A stretch of DNA of 36,866 nucleotides from Verrucomicrobiota bacterium (GTDB lineage: Bacteria; Verrucomicrobiota; Kiritimatiellia; JAAZAB01): positions 1 to 36,866 of the forward strand of contig JAHIJO010000205.1 in the NCBI GenBank assembly GCA_018898455.1, written 5' to 3'. The notes beneath the pieces are model-generated. The model had not been told where the DNA came from, did no database searches, and saw nothing but the letters and a program-made list of their open reading frames with translations. Below, piece by piece: positions 1 to 519 of this stretch. A program made the position numbers and the translations under genes. Position 1 is the stretch's first letter. Every line of letters begins with the position of its first letter.

Positions 1-27
1 ACAGAACCGGGAACGAAGGGGACTCAT
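1..27 (-). CDS. Possible 5' end of a gene running off the left edge
   Basis: On the minus strand an ATG at 27-25 is preceded, six bases upstream, by a strong SD (AAAGGAG, 40-34). The frame stays open to the window edge and gives only nine residues, starting MSPLRS. No product can be named. The case rests on the SD and on the structured leader in front of it. Alternatively the SD-ATG pair is a chance feature of a palindromic intergenic repeat. The sequence beyond the edge would decide. Confidence 0.3.
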
Positions 28-28
28 G

Positions 29-77
29 GCTGACTCCTTTTCGAGTCCGGTTTATTCCGGAACTCGTTGGAGTCAGC
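29..77. repeat. Imperfect 49-bp palindrome that sequesters a Shine-Dalgarno
   Basis: The outer arms GCTGACTCC (29-37) and GGAGTCAGC (69-77) are perfect 9-bp inverted repeats. The inner arms CGAGT-CCGG and CCGG-A-ACTCG pair with one bulged base. In minus-strand RNA the GGAG of the SD of the edge ORF sits in the 3' arm, so folding would block ribosome access. Confidence 0.55.
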
Positions 78-90
78 TTAGCGCATGGGA

Positions 91-129
91 AATAAAAAAC
101 CGCTCCGCGTTTCAATCCGCGAAGCGGTT
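91..129 (-). terminator. Intrinsic terminator-like hairpin, minus strand
   Basis: AACCGCTCCGCG (98-109) pairs with CGCGAAGCGGTT (118-129), 11 of 12 positions, around an 8-base loop. On the minus strand the stem is followed by a T-rich run (complement of the A-rich 91-97). It would end a small RNA or act as the attenuator hairpin of the leader. Confidence 0.5.
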
Positions 130-299
130 CCGTTCAACGCGGGATAAATCCCGGCTCATCTGTCGCCCGAAGCTGATCGCCGGCATCCCTGTCCCGATGC
201 ACGGCGTGATCGGGATTGCCTTGCTTTTTTCTCCTCCTGAGGCGAATCCGCCTGGGGCGGAGAATCCCGACAAGTCAGTAAACTGAATTCGCACCCGGG

Positions 300-305
300 A
301 TTATA
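300..305 (-). promoter_or_regulatory. Perfect -10 box, minus strand
   Basis: TATAAT is present on the minus strand. I see no convincing -35 at 16-18 bp spacing (TTGCAC lies only 13 bp upstream). Initiation near 293 would start the structured leader. Confidence 0.35.
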
Positions 306-341
306 GGGCTTCGCTCATGTGCAAATATTACAATTTTTTAC

Positions 342-369
342 TTGTGCTTTCAACGCCATATGCTATAAA
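342..369 (+). promoter_or_regulatory. Promoter candidate for the first OB-fold-like gene
   Basis: TTGTGC (342-347), a 16-bp spacer and TATAAA (364-369) with an extended TGC directly before the -10. It would give a 5' leader of about 145 nt before the start at 520. The stretch 306-519 holds nothing else I can support. The promoter is divergent from the minus-strand -10 at 300-305. Confidence 0.4.
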
Positions 370-519
370 CATTCTTTTATTGATTTCACCACGTTTTGAT
401 TGCCGGAAAATTTAACCACGGGAGGTGAAAAGAGGAATATCCCATTCACAAGAGTTGAGTTGTCGGCAGACAGATCCTAAAGAATTATAACCATTTCTAT
501 TTACAGGAGTTATAACAAA

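Follow-up and report, generated by a model that had tools for sequence, protein, structure and literature searches.

IS91 moves by rolling-circle transposition, with ori91 and ter91 (mechanism summarised in PMC5714925), and according to the relevant passage of PMC9229058 an IS91-like element lying beside an attC site forms a new cassette. Control through the leader has been described for another transposon, IS200 of Salmonella: a passage of PMC2515195, with reference to Beuzon et al. (1999), describes two stem-loops there, one acting as a Rho-independent terminator that counters read-through and the other sequestering the start of the ORF. No such leader control is described for IS91-type elements in the part of the literature that was covered.

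The window analysed here, 36,866 nucleotides in length, is the whole of contig C139 (JAHIJO010000205.1) of a Verrucomicrobiota genome of 3.9 Mb in 236 contigs (GCA_018898455.1; G000). Its left edge, positions 1–138 on the minus strand, is in our judgement very likely the left end and leader of a multi-copy insertion sequence (IS) of the IS91 family, with a hairpin that would hide the Shine–Dalgarno (SD) sequence and thereby let the element silence itself under read-through. The features concerned are:

1–138, minus strand: left end of the multi-copy IS91-family element, cut off by the contig edge (from the repeat copies and complete homologues in genome G081)
139–305, no strand: host flank of the insertion, single-copy and weakly folding, which carries a TATAAT and an 8-bp stem
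98–129, minus strand: terminal hairpin (arms 129–118 and 109–98), the transposon-end hairpin, also terminator-like
90–99, minus strand: T-run after the terminal hairpin, TTTTTTATTT (sequence scan)
75–80, minus strand: TAAGCT, a possible −10 hexamer for a promoter of the element itself; it overlaps the anti-SD arm at its edge
69–77, minus strand: anti-SD arm GCTGACTCC, in perfect 9-bp pairing with 29–37
42–66, minus strand: inner stem-loop of the SD hairpin, CGAGTTCCGG/CCGGACTCG, from the fold, with changes on both sides of the inner stem
29–37, minus strand: SD arm GGAGTCAGC; the SD is AGGAG at 38–34
1–27, minus strand: first nine codons of ORF1 (MSPLRSRFC), a tyrosine recombinase by homology

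A search of the genome with window positions 1–420 returned eight strong places. Positions 1–138 recur at seven other contig ends with 99–100% identity over 95–141 nt, always at the very end of the contig and each time beside different DNA, the repeated segment extending to 141 where three extra bases agree; no part of 139–420 was found repeated in this search, and 139–305 is single-copy. Copies placed in this manner are typical of a repeat at which the assembly broke, and the contig breaks at its left edge because the element is repeated. As only 1–138 recurs beside unrelated flanks, 139–305 is the host flank of the insertion, ordinary DNA outside the element, and there is no host-designed transcription unit joining the two. 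A matching right end, CGCGGCTCCGTCCAACAACGTTTTATCCC...CTTGGGATAAAACGCTATTCG, lies at about eleven further contig ends, so that eight left and about eleven right ends in unrelated flanks define a multi-copy unit with fixed, subterminally hairpinned ends. The GTT at 138–136 is probably target DNA, after which the element starts GAACGGAACCGC. The copy on contig C39 lies within an array of RCC1-like repeats (identified by eye), and to judge from the intact repeats next to it the AAC/GTT beside this copy is part of the host. Pairing of left and right flanks gave short shared repeats only and no clean empty site. The flanks of several copies (G000:C141, C142, C82 and C71; L115–L117, L092) share a repeat of ~30–95 nt containing, in both orientations, a GGGCGGATAACCCA/TGGGTTATCCGC palindrome; it may be a preferred target. 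Further into the window, on the plus strand, two adjacent ORFs of 134 amino acids with signal-peptide-like starts (520–924 and 1091–1495) share an LPETKAEVADL.K.VGKDVKVV motif and look like a tandem duplication of the gene for a probable secreted protein.

Searches of the window's own genome with PF04986 and ORF1 did not find the body of the element, and loss from the assembly is a usual fate of repeats. Because the body is missing, the identity of ORF1 in the window rests on homology; its reading frame, which had been proposed to continue leftwards from the ATG at 27, is readable here for nine codons only, while homologues elsewhere have an ORF at the corresponding ATG, MSPLRSRFC agreeing with the homologues both in position and in the M-x-x-L-R start. 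The element end was matched significantly in nine others among 193 genomes. Kiritimatiellae bacterium FR_21 (G081, five contigs) has several complete copies, with 98–99% DNA identity, each running from the end into ORF1 (281 amino acids) and then ORF2 (376 amino acids). ORF1 of the G081 copy is a tyrosine recombinase (PF00589, 1e-31; PF13495, 4e-16) and ORF2 an IS91-family transposase (PF04986, 8e-38; PF14319, 3e-32), the latter scoring 324 bits against NCBIfam NF033538 (cut-off 125); together these three profiles in the homologous copies denote a Y2 HUH transposase with the IS91 zinc-binding domain. A class-wide search with ORF1 led to 23 genomes; in most of them ORF2 follows ORF1 and an end of this type precedes it. 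By these profile matches the element would belong to an IS91 subgroup in which a gene for a tyrosine recombinase precedes that for the HUH (Y2) transposase, and by analogy with G081 it would be ~2.4 kb long and close in the right end ...GGGATAAAACGCTATTCG. The exact leader pattern was found neither in the genome collection nor in the viral contigs.

The burial of the SD was assessed by covariation and by predicted accessibility. In an alignment of seven related leaders, 95% of cells in the SD helix were paired and three pairs had changes on both sides; two helices were scored and all double changes fell in this one. In the terminal hairpin 89% of cells were paired, with little variation, which is what a DNA end should show. 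Scored jointly, the two helices had a covariation of 0.244 versus 0.162 in shuffles (0 of 500), and at most 0.112 when they were slid. Across 23 leaders, many with little common sequence, the SD was less accessible than in controls in which the upstream part alone was shuffled (Fisher p 7e-9, a value that overstates independence as the leaders are related). Tests on single leaders were often not significant (p 0.03 for G000; no effect in G139 and G161), and jointly the SD burial of seven proteobacterial relatives was not significant (p 0.054). A stem-loop covering the SD or the start codon is thus found by both structure and covariation, and from these predictions a conserved leader hairpin very probably hides the ribosome-binding site of ORF1. 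The check proposed in the sequence-only reading, a search of PVC genomes for covarying stems that precede one and the same gene, had this outcome: the SD stem shows covariation, and behind it lie the tyrosine recombinase and then the IS91 transposase. The loop of the SD hairpin in G027, G109, G129, G175, G209, G236 and G238 has a recurrent RCATGGTGY tip on a covarying short stem; the ATG of this tip shares the ORF1 frame in several leaders but not in all.

A covariance model of the leader, run over 346 genomes of the class, gave strong matches only at these elements, faint matches having E above 1e-6. Clear additional matches that were examined proved to be broken copies or solo ends and palindromes: in G235 the leader is joined directly to the right end, in G015 it is followed by transposase fragments, at G236:C364 there is a palindrome on its own and G209:C18 retains only the first part of the leader. 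This distribution fits a mobile element and not a host regulatory RNA. Short non-autonomous, MITE-like derivatives were seen at G000:C95:30535-30680 (L085, L009), G235:C9 (L130) and G236:C364 (L145), with the ends joined and the coding part mostly or wholly deleted, some with a near-perfect terminal palindrome.

The sequence-only reading had taken 28–305 for one riboswitch-like leader, and the structures it listed are real: a perfect TATAAT on the minus strand at 305–300, an 8-bp pair TCGGGATT/AATCCCGA at 263–270/210–217, a terminator-type hairpin of 14 pairs at 131–96 followed by the T-run, and a 49-nt palindrome at 29–77 whose 3' arm holds the SD next to the ATG at 27–25. They are, however, split over two objects, the element end and the host flank. 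A riboswitch or other sensing leader controlling a host gene by attenuation would account for the order of TATAAT, terminator-type hairpin and SD-covering hairpin and for the stable overall fold of 1–293 (z −5.5), but that stability is due to the 1–138 part (z −5.3, 0 of 200 shuffles as stable); 139–293 alone folds weakly better than shuffles (z −1.9, 5 of 200 as good), and 139–520 gave short matches only, none good, in genomes of the family, so that no conserved core upstream of a host gene was seen there. The TATAAT has no acceptable −35 in the promoter scan, whose promoter-like sites lie only at 353–324. With eight copies carrying different upstream DNA from the 138/139 boundary outwards, a single unit is refuted; moreover, Rfam returned nothing at gathering score and chance matches only at E ≤ 10, and what the leader precedes is a mobile-element gene. 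We therefore regard such a leader as extremely improbable. Of the attenuation logic that was proposed, the terminator-type and SD-sequestering hairpins stand while ligand sensing gives way to transposon self-control, and the dispersed repeat, named at the time as an alternative, was the right description of 1–138 given its seven further copies. A false riboswitch candidate is thereby removed, and the case illustrates a general trap, in that at contig ends host DNA and a transposon end can together mimic one regulated leader. An IS200/IS605 or RAYT-type (Y1) element is likewise extremely improbable: the two-hairpin leader is like that of IS200 and Y1_Tnp genes do occur in the genome, but none of the Y1_Tnp loci is linked to the end and the genes that follow homologous ends encode a tyrosine recombinase and a Y2 transposase, for which reasons this assignment was rejected. 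Less remote, though still improbable, is that the 29–77 structure matters only as DNA, as a second site for transposase or recombinase, with SD burial as a by-product; HUH transposases recognise hairpins and a recombinase could bind a palindrome. Yet the SD is covered by the 3' arm in one leader after another despite completely different arm sequences, some of the 23 leaders bury the start codon itself in the stem instead, and the changes in the SD helix are compensatory whereas the terminal hairpin, the DNA end, hardly varies.

Whether the repeated unit is an IS at all was considered in the light of its right end, which in several members has the layout of an attC site (R'' RYYYAAC, paired L''/L' arms, R' GTT, foldable). 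These features were present in right ends of the G000, G081, G209, E. coli and Polaromonas copies, including G000:C141 (L086 38–140), L047, L113, L119 and L122; the attC scan found none in the right ends of G153, G129, L120, L124 and L125. The best NCBIfam profile for ORF1 is integron integrase, below its cut-off (155.8 versus 265 bits). The unit might move as a gene cassette of an integron, mobilised by an integron integrase through its attC-like right end, and two further observations point this way: left flanks in other Kiritimatiellae are often attC-end-like (judged by eye), and on the E. coli plasmid pM216_AC2 (L119 2310–4960) the recombinase and IS91 transposase pair lies at G|TT in gene-cassette position, flanked by the class 1 integron cassettes aac(6')-IIa and aadA4. 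Against this, copies in the window's own genome also lie in places that are not attC, such as the RCC1-like repeats, and the element encodes an IS91 transposase; movement as a cassette in place of an IS is unlikely. Somewhat less doubtful, and put forward tentatively from the sequence features, is that this IS91-type branch may have a working attC right end and an integron-integrase-like ORF1, have production of this recombinase silenced by the hairpin formed in read-through RNA and combine HUH with cassette mobility. Were this dual mobility true, it would link the origin of gene cassettes with rolling-circle insertion sequences, and what most deserves a specialist's attention is the pairing of an attC-like right end with an integron-integrase-like gene. 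Published work on ISAzo26, or on a combination of IS91, attC and a tyrosine recombinase, had nothing on point besides a passage on ISShvi3.

For the IS91-family element with its SD-hiding leader, we propose the following mode of control, the logic of which would be that already known from other transposons such as IS200. RNA polymerase entering from host DNA would be partly stopped at the terminal hairpin, which would also serve as the DNA end recognised in transposition. The 'terminator' is this terminal hairpin, followed in the close branch by a T-run; such a T-rich run is also present in other close Kiritimatiellae leaders and absent from diverged ones, and from this arrangement the hairpin may have termination activity. 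RNA that reads through would fold with the SD buried, which would prevent synthesis of the recombinase, and perhaps the transposase would be silenced too by coupling to the recombinase. With TAAGCT as their −10, the element's own transcripts might, less surely, start inside or after the anti-SD arm and so be translated. The TA of the TAAGCT site is invariant in the seven leaders, and most of the close leaders have TA....T at this offset; no clear −35 was found for this candidate promoter. Predicted SD accessibility rose from 0.27 to 0.54 (17 of 23 leaders) for transcripts starting after the −10-like hexamer, a comparison in which the hexamer was picked as the best match and shortening a leader can free the SD by itself.

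Set beside the described systems, the leader resembles that of IS200, which in the passage cited above likewise has a terminator-type stem-loop and a start-sequestering stem-loop. IS200 differs in having a Y1 transposase and no tyrosine recombinase and is not related by sequence; the protected gene in the element described here is, unlike that of IS200, a recombinase. With IS91 the element shares, to judge from its homologous copies, the HUH Y2 transposase family, although IS91 itself has not been described with a tyrosine-recombinase gene; there is no sign here of a long target duplication. The likeness to ISShvi3, an IS91-like element of a Shewanella integron, is by description alone, the passage on it being silent on the leader. 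The nearest named relative is ISAzo26 (IS91 family; Aromatoleum aromaticum EbN1 plasmid 2, NC_006824), in which an annotated tyrosine-recombinase gene also stands ahead of the IS91 transposase. Its ORF1 is 38% identical to ORF1 of the G081 copy, its left end has a ACTAAACCGC..GCGGT hairpin of the same kind as here and its right end carries, as here, a GTCCAAC..TTTTTAGCC/GGCTAAAAA hairpin. ISAzo26 differs in its end sequence and in that its leader has no significant SD burial. The element at the edge of the window is very likely a new Kiritimatiellae member of this IS91/ISAzo26-like group.
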